A stretch of 64,000 nucleotides of DNA, taken from NCBI GenBank assembly GCA_014872785.1, contig WKFJ01000011.1, forward strand, positions 1-64,000, written 5' to 3'. This document shows positions 18,382 through 29,472 of the stretch, piece by piece. The notes below the pieces were generated by a model, which did no database searches, was not told where the DNA came from, and saw only the letters and a list, made by a program, of their open reading frames with translations. A program made the translations under genes and the position numbers. This stretch comes from Alteromonadaceae bacterium (GTDB lineage: Bacteria > Pseudomonadota > Gammaproteobacteria > Enterobacterales > Alteromonadaceae). Within the stretch, counting starts at the first letter, position 1. Each line of letters opens with the position of its first letter.

Positions 18382-19074
18382 ATGCTACAAATACGTACGT
18401 TTTCGAAAAGTCTGATTGTGACGGGGGTATTGTCACTCGTTACAGCATGCGACGGCTCATCTGGTGATAATGAAGTCGTTGATAACGGTCAAACATCGCC
18501 GACAACGCCCACTACACCAACGACTCCAACAACCCCCGTTACGGATACCTCGTGCGAAAATCCTGTTTCGACGCTGCCAACGATATTTTTGGAATTTAAC
18601 TCTTCCCCAAATGTAACAGCGGTTCTTTCAGAGGATGGATGCTATGTCACTATTGAGTCAAACGGTAAGCCAGATCACACCTCTTCATATTGGGATGCGG
18701 GCAATGCTAGCGGTTTGTACGTCGAACCTGAAGATCCCGAACTATTCGAGCGGCAGCGTTCACCGGGAGATATCGAAGACTATATTAATGTCTATCAATT
18801 GACGGTACCCATTGAGCCCGAATTAGCAGAAACATCCTCATCAACGCCCTTAGGCGCGATTGGAATTGCGATAAGTGGCGCGCCTATTTTCAACGATTCA
18901 GAGGGTAATGGCGATGTATCATTGGGAGTCATTCAAGGCGTCCTACTATGGGGGGTTATCCACAAGTACCTCTTGCCCTATCTTTTTTATTTGGTATTTG
19001 GCGCACATATATTAGGCGTGCTCAAGCACCAATTTATCGATAAGAAAAAAGTATTACGCCGCATGGCATCATAA
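18382..19074 (+). pseudogene. Chimeric ORF: YHYH lipoprotein N-terminus joined to cytochrome b561 C-terminus
   Basis: 230 codons. The first part is a lipoprotein leader (GVLSLVTAC, lipid Cys near 23), a Thr/Pro linker with TTPTTPTTP repeats, then a YHYH-domain N-terminus (YWDAGNASGLYVEP, TPLGAIGIAISGAPIFND). The diagnostic YHYH signature that should follow is missing. From about residue 180 the sequence becomes a hydrophobic helix reading GVIHKYLLPYLFYLVFGAHILG then LKHQFIDKKKVLRRM, the last helix and tail of a bacterial cytochrome b561, with His residues at the haem-ligand positions. A deletion that joined two genes in frame is the simplest reading. The start is ATG at 18382 with no good ribosome site. 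Confidence 0.7.
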
Positions 19075-22126: not shown

Positions 22127-24769
22127 TTAGTTTATAACCTCATCGTCATCCTGCATCTCGTACTCTTCCTCAACCACTGGAATAACCTCGGTAGAGGTAT
22201 AGTAAACCGTGTTTGGCACCGAATAATTGGGCACATCATCGTACGAGAAAATGGAATAATATTTAGGGATATTAGGGTTGCCAAAGTTATCGTAAGTGTA
22301 TTCGTCTTTCCCACCATATAGTTTTACACCGTCAAAAGGTGATTTTGGCGGGTGAAACCGATTGCGAACCACAAATGTACCCACGTGATCTTTGTCTTCT
22401 GGATTTTTCCAGGTCAGTTTTACCTGATTACCCTCATAGTTCACCTGCAGGTCTGACGGCGCATTTAATGGTTTTTTACGCCTTTCGATATATTTGATGA
22501 CGAGACGCGCTTCGTTATCACTATCTTTTGCATGCCAGTCCACTAGTGCACCTTGCTCATCCGAGGACGCGGTTGCCCGAATAATAAAATAGAAGGGTTT
22601 GTTCTGCTCATGCATGTCTTCAAGCTGCTGTTTACAATAACTATCAAAAATAAAGTGATGTTCTTTGCGCTCATTTAACTGCGCATTACTTACCTCGTAG
22701 CCAATAAACTCTTTTTTCTGGCGCGCTTTTACACTTTGATAATCAAAATCCTGAAGTTCCGCCAACTCAATCGTAAATCGAATATCGCGATTGGTGTTCA
22801 ATGCGCGTTTGTTTTTCATCACTAAATAGGCATCAGTGATCACAGTGCGGTGGGCATCAGGTAATTGCTCCAAACCAAATGCCATTTGTCCGTATACAAT
22901 GTTGCCATCTATATCAAAACCAGAGCAAAGTTCTGTTTCTACGACCTCATTGCGGTATATGGTATTGAGCGCCGCTGGTGCCATTTCAATTTCTCTGGGT
23001 TGTCGAGAATAGATAACCTCAATGTTGGGGCGATAGTGAATTCCAGAACCGAATTTGCCGTAGCCAATATCAAATTGCATCATTTGCGAATCGGCGCCCA
23101 AAGGCAATTTCCATGGTCCTTCAATGCGAAATAGCAGCTTGCCATCTTTGATAGCATTTTTAAGGATTTTTCGCTCTGCCACATTAAACTGCCACTCTGA
23201 CCACATTCCCTGTGTTAATTTATCCGACTCAATTGAATCACCTAAAGTTTGAACCGGTGTCGCTTGATGAATTTGATTAAAATCAGTGAAATCAGACACG
23301 TCGTTTGTATCCAAAATTGACACTGTCCACTCGCCAAAGTTTTCGACTTTCGCATTGACTCGGTTCATTGGATACAGTGAAAAACGCGCAGCCTTTACTT
23401 TTGCATCTTCAGGCAAGCTATCCAAAGAAAAACAGATGACACCGTAACACACCCCTTTGCGCTTATTCACTCCCACAAACAAGGAGTTATAACCGAAGTG
23501 TTCACGGTTTTTCTCAATGGTGTATTGCCCTACATAACCCACTTGAGTCTTTGCAGGAAAAAGCGAGCGCGCGTACTCGTCGTGTGACAATCTTGTCTTT
23601 AGTTTCACCTCTGGCGAAAATGGGGATTTGATCTTGGTGACCCGGTCAACCGCGCGAATGTTATAAAAGTATTTTTGACCACTTTTAAGCTGTTTATCGG
23701 TGAACTCCAGGTTACGCGTAACAGCTACTAAGGTTTCGTCACGACAAGCATTTTTAACGGTTTCAGAACGATAAAGCTCAAAATAGACGTCTTCTGTTAA
23801 GTCGTAGTCCCAGGAGAGTGTTAAATCGTAAATTCCCAGTTCTAAAATACTGAAATTATCGACTCTACTAGGCGCAAATTTGGAATAATTAGTGGCCTCA
23901 GAAAGTGCGTAAGTTAACGCAGGAATGTTCTCATCAACGCTCTGAGACATGTTGGTGAGATAGTCAGGAATATTGCGTGTGCCAACCTCAACAACTGTCG
24001 CAAGTATGCCTAACGAATAGTAGTACTCTCGGCCACTGCCATGAATCAAGTTAGTGGGTGGCTTACCGCGATGGATACCGTATTTCCGCCCAGTCACCTT
24101 GTGAATTTCTCGATTCATATTAGCGCACAAAACGTTTAAATCGGTTCCTTCGATTTCCGATTCGTGATTAAACTTGTGCGCCGGAAAAAACACATTACCT
24201 TGGGAGTGGTAGTCTAAGGCAATGGTAATATTCTCATGATCGTGAACAAAGTCTCGTATTGCAGCTGTTTCAGGCTCTGAAAATGCTTCCGGGCCACCAT
24301 AAGTATTCAAATGGGTTTCGGTACTACGCTTAAAGCGCACGCCAAAGTTACGGTTTAAATCGACACCGAAAGTACCATCGCCATTATCCCTTCTATTTTT
24401 ACGCCAAAAAGAAAAGTGATTACGAGAGAATTCAAAACCATCAGGATTAAGGCAAGGCACCATATAGAGGGTATTTCGAGTTAACGCCTCTTTTAATTTC
24501 GGGTCGACGCGGTAATTTTCGATGACATACTCAATGAATTTAATCGCCAACTCGTTGCCAATCCACTCACGAGCATGAATAGTGCCCGTATACAACATGG
24601 CCGGTTTTTGATCCGCGTATTCAACATCCAAAGAAATTGTCGCCATCATGATGGGACGACCTTCCCAAGTCGTTCCAATGCTGCTCACACGGATTAAGTG
24701 TGGGTGTTCTCCCACGGCTTTTTCCAAAAAAGCGATAGTTTGCTGGTATGACGTATATTGTTTTTTCAT
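22127..24769 (-). CDS. M14 zinc carboxypeptidase with FN3 and repeated C-terminal modules, no signal peptide
   Basis: 880 aa. The M14 catalytic domain is residues 1 to about 300: zinc ligands His65 and Glu68 (HAREWIGNE) and His188 (LDYHSQG), substrate-binding NPDGFEFSRN and VDLNRNFG, and catalytic Glu261 (VVEVGT). C-terminal to it lie an FN3 domain (about 310-395), two repeats of a beta-sandwich module (about 410-590 and 600-770), a second FN3 (about 785-860) and an acidic tail. A stop three codons before the ATG in the same frame excludes an upstream signal peptide, so the enzyme is predicted to be cytoplasmic, which is unusual for this architecture. It is downstream of two ATP-grasp genes in the same direction; a terminator lies between, so it may have its own promoter. 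Substrate unknown. Confidence 0.88.
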   Translation of the reverse strand: MKKQYTSYQQTIAFLEKAVGEHPHLIRVSSIGTTWEGRPIMMATISLDVEYADQKPAMLYTGTIHAREWIGNELAIKFIEYVIENYRVDPKLKEALTRNTLYMVPCLNPDGFEFSRNHFSFWRKNRRDNGDGTFGVDLNRNFGVRFKRSTETHLNTYGGPEAFSEPETAAIRDFVHDHENITIALDYHSQGNVFFPAHKFNHESEIEGTDLNVLCANMNREIHKVTGRKYGIHRGKPPTNLIHGSGREYYYSLGILATVVEVGTRNIPDYLTNMSQSVDENIPALTYALSEATNYSKFAPSRVDNFSILELGIYDLTLSWDYDLTEDVYFELYRSETVKNACRDETLVAVTRNLEFTDKQLKSGQKYFYNIRAVDRVTKIKSPFSPEVKLKTRLSHDEYARSLFPAKTQVGYVGQYTIEKNREHFGYNSLFVGVNKRKGVCYGVICFSLDSLPEDAKVKAARFSLYPMNRVNAKVENFGEWTVSILDTNDVSDFTDFNQIHQATPVQTLGDSIESDKLTQGMWSEWQFNVAERKILKNAIKDGKLLFRIEGPWKLPLGADSQMMQFDIGYGKFGSGIHYRPNIEVIYSRQPREIEMAPAALNTIYRNEVVETELCSGFDIDGNIVYGQMAFGLEQLPDAHRTVITDAYLVMKNKRALNTNRDIRFTIELAELQDFDYQSVKARQKKEFIGYEVSNAQLNERKEHHFIFDSYCKQQLEDMHEQNKPFYFIIRATASSDEQGALVDWHAKDSDNEARLVIKYIERRKKPLNAPSDLQVNYEGNQVKLTWKNPEDKDHVGTFVVRNRFHPPKSPFDGVKLYGGKDEYTYDNFGNPNIPKYYSIFSYDDVPNYSVPNTVYYTSTEVIPVVEEEYEMQDDDEVIN

Positions 24770-24829
24770 AAGTAGTCAATCTAATCCGAATAAGCAGTTA
24801 CCTGCTCTAACTTGTTCAAAATACTTCGA

Positions 24830-24886
24830 TAAACGAAAAACAAAAATGCACCTTACCGGGCTAAAGACCCAAACCGTAAAGTGCAT
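24830..24886 (-). terminator. Terminator-like hairpin between the HhH ATP-grasp and M14 genes
   Basis: TGCACCTTACCGG (24847-24859) pairs with CCGTAAAGTGCA (24874-24885) with two mismatches. On the minus strand it is followed by TTTTTGTTTTTCG. It lies just downstream of the ATP-grasp stop, so part or all of the M14 transcription may start separately within 24770-24830. Confidence 0.65.
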
Positions 24887-24914
24887 TGCGGGTTGAAGAG
24901 AATCTTGCTCGTAT

Positions 24915-26318
24915 TTACAAAGTCACTCGAAACTCGTCCCAATGTGACATAATCGCTTCGTATTTTTTCTGTTTAACATTCTTAACCGCGAGTAGTTTCG
25001 ACGGATCTTTCATTAGCGCCTCGCTGGTTCCTTTAACACCTAATGTATCTAGGATCGCGCTTCGCATTTTAGGACCAACCCCTTTGACACCCGCGAAAAA
25101 GCTAAACAGTTGTTCTTGGGACAGGCTCAGTTCGCGCTGAGGCTCAATCTCGATGCTCCCCGTTTCTGACTCAACATCTTCCAGACCTACATCTTCGTGT
25201 TCCAAGTGCAAATCAACTACTCTGCTTTGCAATGCCCTTGGGACATAATTGTCTTGGCGATTCCAAATCTCGCTAGGCCATTCTTCGCCTAGGCGCAATT
25301 CAACTGGCAATAGTGGATACATTTCCCGATTCATCGACTCCAAGCTATCGGCACAGTCATAACTGGGCGTGTATTCACCAAACGTGATATGACGCATTGT
25401 GCGCAATACCGAACTGCGGATCTTGCCGAGTTCTTCCCAGTTGAAAGCTGGAATATAAGGATTTTTTATTTTGCCTTCAGAGAAAAGACTCATCAGATAT
25501 TGCCCAATCCAATCGCGAATGTAAGGGAAGGCGGCAAACGCCGTGGCACATTCTAATATTCTGAACTTACCGTCTTCTCCCAACGCAATGTCACATGCCC
25601 AGTATTCGGCGTTGGCCGCCACTGATGCTTTCACCGCTATATCAAGTGCTTCTTGCGGGACATTTTGATAATCCATTGTGCCGCCCTGACTGGTATTGGT
25701 AAGCCACTCCCCCTCTGGAGGACGACGCCAAAACGCACACATTGGACGATGCCCGACAACCATTACTCTAATATCGGCTTGCATCGGCACGAATTCTTGC
25801 ACATAGACTGGGTAATACTTCTTTTGTGCCAGCAACGCCTTAGCTTCGGTAATATCATCTACCTTATGTACGAAGTAGCCACCGTAATTGGAAGGGCCAT
25901 AAGACTTTTTGATTATCTTGGGAAACGTTGTTTTTTCTAGAAACGCAATGGCTTCATCTTTTTCGTAAAAGATATCGGTTTTCGGAATAGGTAAATCGTG
26001 TTTTTCACAAAAATGGGTAACATTCTCTTTCGACTTATTCGCAAACTGGGCATCGAGTGAAGGTACAAAACGCACTTCAGGCAACTCTCGAGATATTTCA
26101 CGAAAGGTTTCATATGCAGTTGCGGGAATATTGCCAATAAGTACATCAATTTTTTTGCGTTTTACTTCTTTGATAAAGCGTTTTTTATCGTTACCCCAGT
26201 GATAAACCACTTTTTCTATTTTGTTAGGCCAACCTTTAAAGTTGGAGTTATCGAAAAATCGCAGTACGTGATCCAGGTATAAAAAACCTAATTTAGGAAG
26301 CGCCTTTTTTTTAGCCAT
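24915..26318 (-). CDS. ATP-grasp ligase with C-terminal helix-hairpin-helix domain
   Basis: Cytoplasmic, 467 aa from the ATG at 26316-26318; a TTG five codons upstream would overlap the preceding gene. Residues about 1-90 are a basic pre-ATP-grasp region. The ATP-grasp fold follows: IIKKSYGPSNYGGYFVHK (phosphate loop), YPVYVQEFVP (adenine hinge), RVMVVGHRPMCAFWRR and CDIALGEDGKFRILECATAFAAF (metal site). The metal-site Asn of the usual E-x-N is replaced by the CAT stretch, so the chemistry should be verified. A linker of about 120 residues leads to a C-terminal helix-hairpin-helix (FAGVKGVGPKMRSAIL, about 410-435), normally a DNA-binding motif and rare on an ATP-grasp. It starts 4 bp after the upstream ATP-grasp gene, so they are one operon. 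Confidence 0.85.
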   Translation of the reverse strand: MAKKKALPKLGFLYLDHVLRFFDNSNFKGWPNKIEKVVYHWGNDKKRFIKEVKRKKIDVLIGNIPATAYETFREISRELPEVRFVPSLDAQFANKSKENVTHFCEKHDLPIPKTDIFYEKDEAIAFLEKTTFPKIIKKSYGPSNYGGYFVHKVDDITEAKALLAQKKYYPVYVQEFVPMQADIRVMVVGHRPMCAFWRRPPEGEWLTNTSQGGTMDYQNVPQEALDIAVKASVAANAEYWACDIALGEDGKFRILECATAFAAFPYIRDWIGQYLMSLFSEGKIKNPYIPAFNWEELGKIRSSVLRTMRHITFGEYTPSYDCADSLESMNREMYPLLPVELRLGEEWPSEIWNRQDNYVPRALQSRVVDLHLEHEDVGLEDVESETGSIEIEPQRELSLSQEQLFSFFAGVKGVGPKMRSAILDTLGVKGTSEALMKDPSKLLAVKNVKQKKYEAIMSHWDEFRVTL

Positions 26319-26322
26319 GGGT

Positions 26323-27264
26323 CTAGTTCTCAAATTTTAAGGATTGTTGGGTCTTAGAGTGTTCTTTTGCTTTGCGCTCGATAAGATCGACAACGCGGTC
26401 AATTTTGGCGTCATTGAAATTGAGGCCGATTACTTCTTGCTCTGGGGTAGCAAATGCTGGAATACCATTAACTTCTAGCACCACGTATTCTTCGCGATCC
26501 ATATCGTAAATAATGTCGACACCAGCTATTTCTAAACCGACAATGCTCGCGGCTTTTTTGGCCAAGGCGATAATCTCATCATTGGGTTCACGAGCGATGA
26601 CTTTGCCGCCGCTGGTAACGTTAGTTTTCCAGTCGTCTGAGGGAGCCTGACGGCCATAACAACCGACATAATGACCATCTACAATATCAATGCGATAGTC
26701 CGTCATGTCGTAGTTCACAAAACGTTCTACGTAGTAAAATGGAATGTTTGTATGGTCGAGAAACGGGATCAACATATCCAACGAACGTTCATTTTCAATT
26801 TTTACGATCCCCATACCGCCCCAACCATCCGTGGGTTTATAGATCAATCGACCATCCCATTCACGAATGGTGTTTTTAAGTGTATTTTTTTCAGTTTTGT
26901 TGCACAGGCGATAATCTGCGGTTCGAACGCCGGCTCTATTGAGCATATGGGATGTGCGGAACTTATCTTCACACAGTGCAAATGAGGCATAATTGTTCAA
27001 GCATGGTAGTGATTCATTCAACACTTGATACATGTACATCTGATAGGATGTTTGCGCCCCGGCGTTGTAGGAATAAAAAGCGTCTAACTCTTCCATTACA
27101 ACGTTGTGACAGGTAATTTGCCCATTGTGGGCTTTAGCATGGGCGAGGTTTAAGTCCGTTATTACGGCGATATCCCTCTCTCTTAATTTATTAACAATCT
27201 TTGCTTGGATGACTTCTCCGCCACCATTTTTGTACATCCACATACCAACGGTATATTTCAACAT
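26323..27264 (-). CDS. RimK-like ATP-grasp ligase
   Basis: Cytoplasmic, 313 aa, glutathione synthase/RimK-type ATP-grasp. The N-terminal domain is about 1-95. The ATP-grasp has KFRTSHMLNRAGV (lead helix), LIYKPTDGWGGMGI (Gly-rich phosphate loop), YYVERFVNYDMTDYRID (hinge and substrate side), NVTSGGKVI, and VVLEVNGIPAF with the Glu and Asn metal ligands intact. This family makes carboxylate-amine bonds with ATP, often amino-acid or peptide ligation. GAGGT lies about 10 bases before the ATG. It is the first gene of the ATP-grasp pair and faces away from the M20 peptidase across a 476-bp promoter region. The acceptor and donor substrates cannot be told from the sequence. Confidence 0.9.
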   Translation of the reverse strand: MLKYTVGMWMYKNGGGEVIQAKIVNKLRERDIAVITDLNLAHAKAHNGQITCHNVVMEELDAFYSYNAGAQTSYQMYMYQVLNESLPCLNNYASFALCEDKFRTSHMLNRAGVRTADYRLCNKTEKNTLKNTIREWDGRLIYKPTDGWGGMGIVKIENERSLDMLIPFLDHTNIPFYYVERFVNYDMTDYRIDIVDGHYVGCYGRQAPSDDWKTNVTSGGKVIAREPNDEIIALAKKAASIVGLEIAGVDIIYDMDREEYVVLEVNGIPAFATPEQEVIGLNFNDAKIDRVVDLIERKAKEHSKTQQSLKFEN

Positions 27265-27740
27265 GTTTGCTCACACCTCAAAAACCATTTTATCCTTGTG
27301 TCGTAGGGTCAATCTTCAAATTGCTTGAAGACGCTTTTTACGCAATGAGATAAAAGTCAAAAAGTTATAGTCAAAAAGTTCCTGTTTTATTCCGCCTTTC
27401 CAATGGCGAAGGACCTACAAGTCATCCGTACAAAATGCGAAAGCCGTTTAACCTGAACGGGGTCAAACGGCAGACAAAGTTTATTGTTATGAGTTATGTG
27501 ATTTGTCTCAGGATCCCAGCACATCCCGAAAACTTGTATAAAAACGCGGCTAGTAAATAGCACTACTGTGACCCTTTTATTACCGTCACAAAAACGCCAT
27601 CAAAACTTAATTTCTCTGCAACTTTAATTGGAAAATGACAACTCAATGACAATCGTTTTGTTGCCATAAATATGTCATTTACCCGCAATACAATCGCGGC
27701 GCATTTTTTAACCAAAGCCATACATTAGCGAGACCCTACA
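27265..27740. other. Divergent promoter region with 14-bp-period direct repeat
   Basis: 476 bp without a gene, between the ATP-grasp operon (minus) and the M20 peptidase (plus). AGTCAAAAAGTT occurs twice, at 27355-27366 and 27369-27380, spaced 14 bp. GCCGTTT (27443-27449) and AAACGGC (27465-27471) form an inverted repeat. Both could be regulator sites shared by the two divergent units. No promoter hexamers convincing enough to place were found. Confidence 0.45.
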
Positions 27741-28841
27741 GTGAGCAGCGATTACGATTTTTCAGAACTAAAACGCATCATCGAAATAAATTCCTACACC
27801 AAGAACAAGGCGGGTGTAGATAGAATTAATGACATCTACAGCGAATGGATGCAGACACTTGGCTTTAACGTGCACATTCACAAGCGAGAAGACATTGGCA
27901 ATCATGTGCATTACACCAGTGCTAAAACAGAAGGGTTAAAAATCCTTTTATTAGGTCATCAAGATACGGTTTTCCCACAAGGCAGTTTTGAACAATTCAA
28001 TGAGGATGATGAGTGGATTTACGGCCCGGGCGTATGTGACATGAAAGGCGGTAACTACATTGCTATTCAAGCACTTCGCAACATCAAAAAAACTCACGGT
28101 GAAATTAAAAATATAGATGTTTTAATGGTCAGCGACGAAGAAACCGGCAGCGATGATAGTAAGGCATTGTCTCGCGAGTTAGCCAAGCAATATGACCTTT
28201 GCTTAGTGTTTGAAGCGGCAGGGAAAGATCACGATGTCGTCATCGCCCGAAAAGGCATTGCCACTTATCACATTGAATTTGAGGGTAAAGCCGCACACGC
28301 GGGTAATCATTATGTAGAAGGTTTAAACGCCAATCTCGCGGCAGCACATGTGCTAATCGAATTAACCAAGCTAACTGATTTAGCAAAAGGTACCACCGTA
28401 AATGCGGGCAAAATGAAAGGTGGTATTGGCGCCAACACAATCTCACCTAGTGCGAGTTTAGTGGTAGAAGCAAGGTTTACGCAATCAGATGAAAGAGACA
28501 GAGTGTTGTCTGCATTTCCTGCCATTTGTGCTGCCCCATTTGTCGAAGGCGTAAAAGTAACGTTAAGCGGTGGTTTACAAAGAGATGTCATGCAGCCAAG
28601 CGAAGCACAAGCCGAATTGGTGAAACAAATCGAAGAAATCCTAGGTTATCAGCTTATTCTAGAAAAACGTGGTGGTGTCAGTGATGCCAATGTAGTTAGC
28701 AGTGTTGGCTGCCCTACACTTGATGGTTGGGGGCCTTTTGGTGATGGTGACCACACCGTTCACGAGCGAGCATTGAAATCTAGTTTTGTGCGCCGCGAGC
28801 AAGAAGTTACCCAAATACTCGATGCGTTTTGTCCTCAATAA
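27741..28841 (+). CDS. M20 zinc peptidase, glutamate carboxypeptidase-like
   Basis: Cytoplasmic dinuclear-zinc peptidase, 366 aa, resembling carboxypeptidase G2 and other M20A enzymes. The metal and catalytic sites are visible: His-x-Asp in LLGHQDTVFP, bridging Asp in GPGVCDMKGG, catalytic Glu and metal Glu in VSDEETGSDDSK, FEAAG, and the last His in GDGDHTVHERA. The dimerisation lid (about 180-290) includes KAAHAGNHYVEGLNA. It starts at GTG (27741). Relatives release C-terminal glutamate or split small amidated amino acids. It stands divergent from the ATP-grasp/M14 group, which supports a linked role in turning over the ligase product, though this is inference. There is no signal peptide. 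A hairpin follows the gene. Confidence 0.88.
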   Translation: MSSDYDFSELKRIIEINSYTKNKAGVDRINDIYSEWMQTLGFNVHIHKREDIGNHVHYTSAKTEGLKILLLGHQDTVFPQGSFEQFNEDDEWIYGPGVCDMKGGNYIAIQALRNIKKTHGEIKNIDVLMVSDEETGSDDSKALSRELAKQYDLCLVFEAAGKDHDVVIARKGIATYHIEFEGKAAHAGNHYVEGLNANLAAAHVLIELTKLTDLAKGTTVNAGKMKGGIGANTISPSASLVVEARFTQSDERDRVLSAFPAICAAPFVEGVKVTLSGGLQRDVMQPSEAQAELVKQIEEILGYQLILEKRGGVSDANVVSSVGCPTLDGWGPFGDGDHTVHERALKSSFVRREQEVTQILDAFCPQ

Positions 28842-28880: not shown

Positions 28881-28993
28881 CATTTACAAAAAACTGGTCA
28901 AAAAAAGGCTTGGCATGATGTGTTTCGCCAAATAAAATAGCCGACGTTGAATTAAAGTTCACTTTTTTGGAATCACATTTTAAAGGATTAAAC

Positions 28994-29472
28994 ATGAAAC
29001 AAATTGCTATTGTACTTTTTCTACTTTTACTCACACCTTTTCAAAGCAAAGCAGATGCCGACACCCGTGCGGCAATTGAAAGAATGTTTGCGCTTACCGA
29101 TATGCAAGCGATGCTAGATAGTACTTACGCACAGATGGACGCAATGTTTGGGCGCATGGCACAGACACAAAATATGAGCGCCGAAGAACGCGCAATATTT
29201 GAAAGCTACATCACTAAGTTCTCTCAAGCCACGCGAGAGTTGATGAGCTGGGAAGAGATGAAAGAACCTATTATCGATGCTTACGTGCAAGTTTATACAA
29301 AACAAGAAGTAGAAGAATTGATTGCATTTTATCAATCGCCGACTGGCAAAAGATGCCCGAACTTATGCAAGCGACAATGCAGACAATGCAAAGTTTTTCA
29401 CAAAAACTAATGCCGAAAATGCAACAGCTGCAACAAGAGCTACAAGCTGAACTAAAAGCAGCCAAGAACTAA
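28994..29472 (+). pseudogene. DUF2059 exported protein, frameshifted
   Basis: Translation from ATG 28994 (AAAGGA upstream) gives a signal peptide (KQIAIVLFLLLLTPFQSKA) and a DUF2059-type helical protein (IERMFALTDMQAMLDSTY... YTKQEVEELIAFYQSPTGK). After SPTGK this frame turns into Cys-rich nonsense and stops at 29410. Another frame gives the expected end, MPELMQATMQTMQSFSQKL and a Gln/Lys-rich helix, stopping at 29470-29472. The family usually has a few residues between SPTGK and the MPELMQ helix, so a small deletion near 29345-29353 that also lost frame is likely. DUF2059 proteins are secreted and of unknown function. Confidence 0.75.

Follow-up and report, generated by a model that had tools for sequence, protein, structure and literature searches.

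The stretch of DNA analysed here, referred to as the window, comprises 64,000 nucleotides of contig WKFJ01000011.1 from an Alteromonadaceae bacterium (assembly GCA_014872785.1) and contains a cluster of four genes coding for two ATP-grasp proteins and two peptidases. Three of these genes lie on the reverse strand. The first ATP-grasp ligase, here called G1, is encoded at 26323..27264 (313 aa; RimK PF08443, E 6.7e-17), and a gap of 4 bp separates it from the second ATP-grasp protein, G2, at 24915..26318 when read from its ATG (467 aa; RimK PF08443, E 2.1e-14). Residue numbers of G2 are counted throughout from an upstream TTG at 26333 (472 aa), not from this ATG. An M14 metallocarboxypeptidase gene follows at 22127..24769 (880 aa; PF00246, E 4.1e-56). 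The fourth gene, on the forward strand at 27741..28841, encodes a carboxypeptidase G2-like M20 peptidase (366 aa; PF01546, E 8.4e-21) and diverges from G1, leaving a putative shared promoter region at 27265..27740 between them. In Pfam the four proteins were assigned to RimK-type ATP-grasp (twice), Peptidase_M14, and Peptidase_M20 with M20_dimer. Both ATP-grasp proteins exceed the PF08443 gathering cut-off of 21 bits (G1 62.1, G2 54 bits). No NCBIfam cut-off was reached among the matches listed, which were the best 25 out of 26 families for G2, out of 30 for G1 and out of 55 for M20.

A sequence-only reading of this region had described the four open reading frames, the 4-bp gap, the divergent M20 gene, an in-frame stop upstream of M14 and a lack of signal peptides, and the open reading frame list of the window bears this description out. 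An in-frame TGA at 24776-24778 is separated from the M14 start codon by two codons, which excludes an additional signal peptide; in an alignment of 23 M14 sequences, M1 and K2 are invariant. By eye, a hydrophobic leader was seen at none of the four N-termini. The same reading had connected the four genes by position, proposing adjacency and co-occurrence in other genomes as a check and naming homologues that rarely lie together as the outcome that would speak against it. We ran this check, and the outcome was the opposite. Relatives of G2 were taken as the best 80 of 177 stretches in a genome collection; by record title their bearers are Alteromonas, Pseudoalteromonas, Colwellia, Photobacterium, Veronia, Shewanella, Halomonas, Endozoicomonas, Sulfurovum, Arcobacteraceae and others. 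Using tblastn with matches of at least 90 bits, 122 loci were re-annotated, 119 of them distinct. These loci were picked for having G2, so that counts of adjacency among them are conditional on G2. M20, G1, G2 and M14 were found all together in 106 of the 119 distinct loci, in the same order in 105, and the complete set was seen in Gammaproteobacteria, Campylobacterota and further Pseudomonadota. M20 is divergent in 90 of the complete loci, as in the window, co-directional in the same order in 15 and rearranged in one (L122). Flanking genes are common mainly within lineages.

The 13 exceptions are of several kinds. Five loci hold G1, G2 and M14 without M20 (L084, L091, L101, L105, L113) and one holds G1 and G2 only (L099), several of these six being on short or truncated records. 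M14 is missing from three loci, with M20 divergent in L088 and L102 and co-directional in L095. G2 stands alone in L163, L164 and, as a fragment, in L189, and L174 has neither G1 nor M20. L088 and L165 read as one genome, whose M14 sits on a different contig. Mirror-tree correlations among the four proteins range from 0.66 to 0.86 across 97 loci; these values include shared species history and agree with joint inheritance. By mean identities between groups that were hand-assigned from locus numbers, one group of Campylobacterota (A) is nearer to group C by G1 and nearer to group B by G2, and therefore some exchange of parts is likely.

The module genes are rare and patchily distributed. A strong G2 match (E <1e-170) occurs in 9 of 295 genomes of the order, and G2 was found in 5 of 398 genomes of a wider phylum sample, the genome of the window being included in both counts. 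It was further found in 32 of 298 genomes, one of them with a fragment, of the phylum of genome G639, which we take to be Campylobacterota from its Sulfurovum-titled locus L100. In these 298 genomes we counted full-length M14 (using profile A3), full G2, and G1 at E values up to 1e-50, restricting the genome-wide count to these three genes, as M20 paralogues are common. M14 was present in 32 genomes and G2 and G1 in 31 each, and all three coincide in 30 of the 33 genomes that have any of them in full. The genomes share ancestry and are not independent, and we state the co-occurrence without a probability. Only three genomes hold a part of the set, G860, G898 and G747; in G747 G1 is the only one of the three, with M20 adjoining, on a contig of 4,156 bases. 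None of the three is present in full in the other 265 genomes, two of which carry fragments. G679 retains a fragment of G2 and 46 positions of M14, with no G1 found in a search of that genome, and G896 retains a 59-position piece of M14 behind rplS. The same neighbour is found at the split set of G651. In this genome and in G771, G2 lies between efp and dnaE, and G1 and M14 lie together elsewhere, with M20 adjoining this pair in G651. The names efp, dnaE, rplS, rimM and trmD are our assignments, read off the sequences by eye. By locus, G2 or a remnant of it was seen between efp and dnaE, away from other module genes, at L163, L164 and L189 in three Campylobacterota genomes. In G328 (L122:559-4290), M14 and M20 occupy a single open frame of 1,243 codons, which is, if the assembly is right, a direct physical link of the two hydrolases. 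The connection of the four genes is no longer a matter of position only: conserved order, co-occurrence, joint decay and the M14-M20 fusion all speak for it, and the four genes form a genuine conserved unit.

The nearest PDB entries of G1 are Pseudomonas RimK (7qyr), Sulfolobus ArgX (3vpb) and two more RimK entries; by their entry names RimK and ArgX are both glutamate ligases. The catalytic metal ligands of ATP-grasp enzymes are an Asp and a Glu-x-Asn motif. This metal site is intact in G1, where D250 and E264-x-N266 are kept in 109 of 109 sequences. A second copy of G1, 56% identical to that of the window, was seen in G639 apart from the module (L235:11626-12561), where it adjoins large genes that by eye resemble type I restriction genes.

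G2 deviates at this site. It keeps D248 and E261, and reads Glu-Cys-Ala (E261-C262-A263, codons at 25545..25553, reverse strand) in place of the Glu-x-Asn of RimK-type enzymes, with Ala263 instead of Asn in 118 of 118 distinct sequences, within a highly conserved stretch. The altered metal site suggests that G2 is a scaffold or carries out another reaction. The model of G2 is weak (pLDDT 68.9), and its closest folds in Foldseek were ArgX, D-Ala-D-Ala ligase (Ddl) and LysX. A feature absent from the sequence-only reading is a C-terminal helix-hairpin-helix tail (residues 410-465; 24939..25106, reverse strand; HHH_5 E 9.1e-5, below the curated cut-off). The tails differ by clade: HHH_5 scores above its cut-off in L163 and below it in the window and in L070, HHH_3 scores above its cut-off in L178 and L183, and no Pfam match was found for the tails of L012, L100, L176 and L177. 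A tail of this kind points to contact with nucleic acid or with a partner bound to it.

The catalytic domain of M14 spans residues 1-297 (23879..24769, reverse strand). The zinc-binding and catalytic residues of an A/B metallocarboxypeptidase (HxxE...H, NR and Glu) are present, namely H65, E68, N139, R140, H188 and E261, all invariant, and every one of 107 distinct sequences keeps the zinc ligands and the catalytic glutamate. Over residues 1-297, the model of M14 (mean pLDDT 77.9) resembles the pancreatic-type carboxypeptidases B, A and T (Foldseek and VIA, 50 entries listed), with VIA Z values of 20.9-23.8, rmsd mostly 3-4 and about 260 aligned positions. No CCP-type enzyme is named among the matches listed for M14, 55 by sequence and 50 by VIA, and such lists prove no absence. 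The remaining part of about 580 residues (22130..23878, reverse strand), likewise absent from the sequence-only reading, is beta-rich in the model, with Fn3-like and weak DNRLRE-like stretches; it matches NF033679 (DNRLRE) at E 3.5e-6, below the cut-off, and the tail-fibre-like phrog_31 at residues 290-381. In two same-genus genomes without a module-strength match, the best M14 matches reach E 3.9e-24 and 2.4e-23, compared with 6.6e-57 in the window.

The sequence-only reading also lacked the invariant residues that bear on function, among them Arg247 of M14 (codon 24029..24031, reverse strand), which does not vary among 107 distinct sequences. A HMMER alignment places it opposite residue 255, the S1' specificity position of CPB and CPA4. 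An engineered CPB (4uia) has Asp at this position and CPA4 has Ile (profile-to-PDB alignment, E 8e-6 and 2e-5). We also compared it with M14 paralogues, motif-filtered from 30 loci (L205-L234), which left three module M14s and seven others. In a MAFFT alignment, the CPA-like paralogues of neighbouring genomes (L208-L213) have Asp in five of six cases and Gln in one, and the more distant paralogue L217 has Asn, so that Asp, Gln or Asn stands opposite Arg247 in seven of seven. In carboxypeptidase O, Arg255 confers acidic C-terminal specificity, Xenopus Cpo.1 cuts a Glu-Glu substrate, and pocket residues besides Arg255 also count (PMC9925722). By analogy with this enzyme, Arg247 fits an acid-selecting role in M14.

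The M20 peptidase contains all zinc ligands and the binding Asn and Arg of its family, in an M20 and an M20_dimer domain. H73, D100, E133, E134 and E158 as well as N232, R245 and R281 are present in 107 of 107 sequences, and H338 in 106 of 107 with one gap. The nearest solved relative is carboxypeptidase G2 (CPG2, 1cg2; E 1.5e-40), an enzyme that acts on small folates.

Our proposal, which we hold at about even confidence, is that the four proteins form a cytoplasmic ligase-hydrolase module that reversibly adds acidic residues, probably glutamate, to an acceptor. Reversible addition of acidic residues is the simplest reading because the ligases are related to glutamate ligases, M14 has an arginine likely to select acidic residues, M20 is CPG2-like, and all four proteins are apparently cytoplasmic. 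At the expense of ATP, G1 would link an acidic amino acid (most likely glutamate) to the acceptor through one of the acceptor's carboxyl groups. G2 would be an obligatory second ATP-grasp protein, either for a second, different ligation or for recruitment or regulation of G1. M14, acid-specific via Arg247, and the CPG2-like M20 would take residues off again, making the acidic tail reversible; the two peptidases may act on different linkages, or one of them may trim the tail before the other completes its removal. The divergent M20 gene would allow removal to be set separately. The analysis shows the conservation, the co-occurrence, the family assignments and the catalytic residues, whereas the added residue, the direction of each step and the acceptor are all inferred. 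We slightly favour a macromolecule over a small molecule as acceptor, since M14 has a large extension and the helix-hairpin-helix tails differ among G2 proteins. The sequence-only reading had proposed cytoplasmic building and trimming of a peptide tag or a small amidated metabolite. This idea is supported in part: building and trimming fit the residues and gain a likely acidic chemistry, the product may be a protein tag or a small metabolite, and one or both ATP-grasp proteins may be active.

Several points weigh against this proposal. Within the term acidic, glutamate is a guess, and aspartate fits equally well. The altered metal site of G2 may mean that this protein is no ligase at all, and its helix-hairpin-helix tail, being undetected or missing in some G2 proteins, cannot be essential. 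The modelled active-site loops of M14 have pLDDT values below 50, and the placement of Arg247 opposite residue 255 is by sequence only. Finally, G860 has G2 and M14 without G1, and G898 has M14 without either ATP-grasp gene at the thresholds used.

The sequence-only reading had not recognised the set as a described system. No such four-gene pathway was found in the literature searched, which covered titles and abstract openings (for one query, 20 of 48 hits); the survey most likely to mention it, Iyer et al. 2009 (Mol Biosyst 5:1636), lay outside this scope, and an earlier mention is possible. One comparison is RimK/RimB, the polyglutamylation system of ribosomal protein S6, which consists of an ATP-grasp glutamate ligase with a glutamate-removing peptidase (PMC11957791, PMC12239564). 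Like RimABK, the module pairs ATP-grasp proteins with peptidases. However, the RimK equivalog NF007764, with its cut-off of 331 bits, gives 43.0 bits for G1 and 22.9 for G2, and the peptidases are M14 and M20, with no retropepsin-like RimB in the cluster. Of 16 module genomes tested, 7 also encode a RimK that exceeds the cut-off, and this rules out the module as a general replacement of RimK. In the genome of the window no RimK over the cut-off was found (the assembly is 93.86% complete), and G400 has only pieces. Two same-genus genomes were also searched: G940, which has no module-type M14, has RimK over the cut-off, and in G941 it falls just under, at 325.5 of 331 bits. Since the cut-offs are missed, the peptidases differ and RimK coexists, the module is not RimABK.

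The TTLL/CCP enzymes combine ATP-grasp-fold writers with M14 erasers of acidic tails on tubulin. The module shares this ATP-grasp and M14 combination, but G1 and G2 are RimK-like, the module M14 is of CPA/CPB/CPT type, and two writers are encoded together with an M20, in bacteria. Our best reading, by analogy, is that the module would work like RimK/RimB or TTLL/CCP and belong to neither. Carboxypeptidase O is an animal, extracellular enzyme. The module M14 shares with it the A/B type and the Arg at residue 255 (PMC9925722), but it is bacterial, has no signal peptide and carries the long beta-rich extension. In Burkholderia cenocepacia, a bacterial, potentially cytosolic M14 carboxypeptidase has been proposed to act on polyglutamate (PMC3940198). 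By its title this enzyme is an "M14-type cytosolic carboxypeptidase" and hence of CCP type, and the opening of the abstract mentions no ligase module. In the rlo operon of Pseudomonas aeruginosa, the gene of a cytoplasmic ATP-grasp protein neighbours that of a peptidase; the operon encodes a retropepsin-like protease that is secreted and a transglutaminase-like protein of the membrane (PMC12239564), whereas the module has neither. The ATP-grasp family of the GAK system (TIGR04356) is likewise distinct, with 67.6 bits for G1 and 44.9 bits for G2 against a cut-off of 300.

Among other explanations, a small-molecule cycle survives best and is possible, if doubtful. Here G1 and G2 would make a small acidic peptide or a glutamyl conjugate, which M14 and M20 would recycle; the compound could be an osmolyte, a reserve or a form of a cofactor. 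There is a precedent in the NAGGN osmolyte cluster, which pairs a synthetase with a peptidase, and many of the bearers belong to marine genera. G1 scores above chance against the MptN, CofF and NAGGN synthetase models, and M20 resembles CPG2, known as an enzyme of small folates. Yet the scores of G1 and G2 against these models are far under the cut-offs (for the NAGGN synthetase TIGR03103, 41.9 and 12 bits against 569), and M14, with its long beta-rich part, and G2, with its helix-hairpin-helix tails, look suited to large partners. Moreover, a biosynthetic or transporter gene is never a steady neighbour; the commonest neighbour family, ABC-type ATPases (24 loci, at a median of 3.2 kb), is a huge one lumped by similarity.

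A carrier-protein pathway is improbable. In the pathway of LysW with LysX/ArgX and LysK, the amino acid is held on the acidic tail of a carrier that ends in EDWGE, and is freed by an M20 hydrolase. RimK-like ligases together with an M20 hydrolase are common to both, ArgX and LysX are the best or nearly the best matches of G1 and G2, and M20 weakly matches the [LysW]-lysine hydrolase model NF003367 (43.3 bits against 363 required). Against it, no short open reading frame ending in EDWGE was found in the window or in the 122 loci, to which this search was limited, the LysX model TIGR02144 with its cut-off of 275.6 bits is missed by both proteins (G1 96.7, G2 77 bits), and the M14 exopeptidase of the module has no role in such a pathway. 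Marginally more improbable still is a peptide natural product, in which the ATP-grasp pair would modify a ribosomal precursor and the peptidases would mature the product. PsnB, known as a graspetide ligase, is among the Foldseek matches of G2, but among 515 small open reading frames within 400 bp of the genes no precursor-like one recurs across taxa, though this does not prove that none exists. The best-connected of them has relatives in 10 other loci, and 10 of these 11 loci are by record title from Pseudoalteromonas, the other being L124. That four unrelated housekeeping genes are neighbours by chance is refuted by their conservation across phyla with mostly differing flanks, their co-occurrence and the M14-M20 fusion.

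Most neighbour families of the module are lineage-specific. Besides the ABC-type ATPases, response regulators (15 loci) and a 661-residue sensor-like family (11 loci) are found in both phyla, all of them large families lumped by similarity. The rimM-trmD-rplS group also spans both phyla (5 loci, two of them from one genome), and the module or a remnant of it adjoins this group in gammaproteobacteria and Campylobacterota at L051/L126, L191, L177, L185, L238 and L239. The rimM-trmD-rplS and efp neighbours could hint at a link with translation or at a common insertion point. The gap between M20 and G1 matches a Pho-box consensus at a mean of 13.0 of 19 positions compared with 11.8 in mononucleotide shuffles (91 regions), a weak signal among related sequences. 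Repeats resembling TGTCACA/GGTCA recur in this gap in several gammaproteobacterial loci, again a weak signal among related sequences. They may form a site for a shared regulator, and we claim no regulator. A phage origin was considered and rejected: in one pattern scan a G2 homologue was confirmed nowhere in IMG/VR, and phage records gave two distant partial matches. Plasmid bearers comprise one record, a Photobacterium replicon of 2.1 Mb that carries no annotation in the matching stretch. Anti-phage defence was also rejected, as none of the four proteins matched a PADLOC-DB family (E 0.001). Next to the module in the window, a DUF2059 open reading frame at 28967-29410 aligns with no more of the 60-position model than positions 1-34 and ends in an odd Cys/Lys-rich tail, as though the reading frame had been lost. 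A further open reading frame at 18382-19074 has a lipoprotein-like start and matches only the end of cytochrome b561 (E 9.8e-6, below the cut-off), and looks like a fusion or a decayed gene.

For ribosomes (RimK/RimB) and for tubulin (TTLL/CCP), amino-acid tails are known to be written by a ligase and erased by a paired peptidase. The module described here would be a four-enzyme version of such a pair, kept across at least two phyla and with residue-level evidence for acidic chemistry. A more far-reaching version of our proposal, which we consider speculative and rather unlikely, is that bacteria use acidic tails as a code with writers and erasers, which would be the prokaryotic equivalent of the tubulin glutamylation cycle, assembled from different enzymes. 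In this code, two ATP-grasp writers, one of them tethered by its helix-hairpin-helix tail to nucleic acid or to a nucleic-acid-bound protein, would glutamylate DNA- or ribosome-associated proteins, and the two carboxypeptidases, which belong to different families, would erase different linkages, for example chain and branch point. Genes that have merely generic family matches thereby become one testable question, namely what carries the acidic tail.

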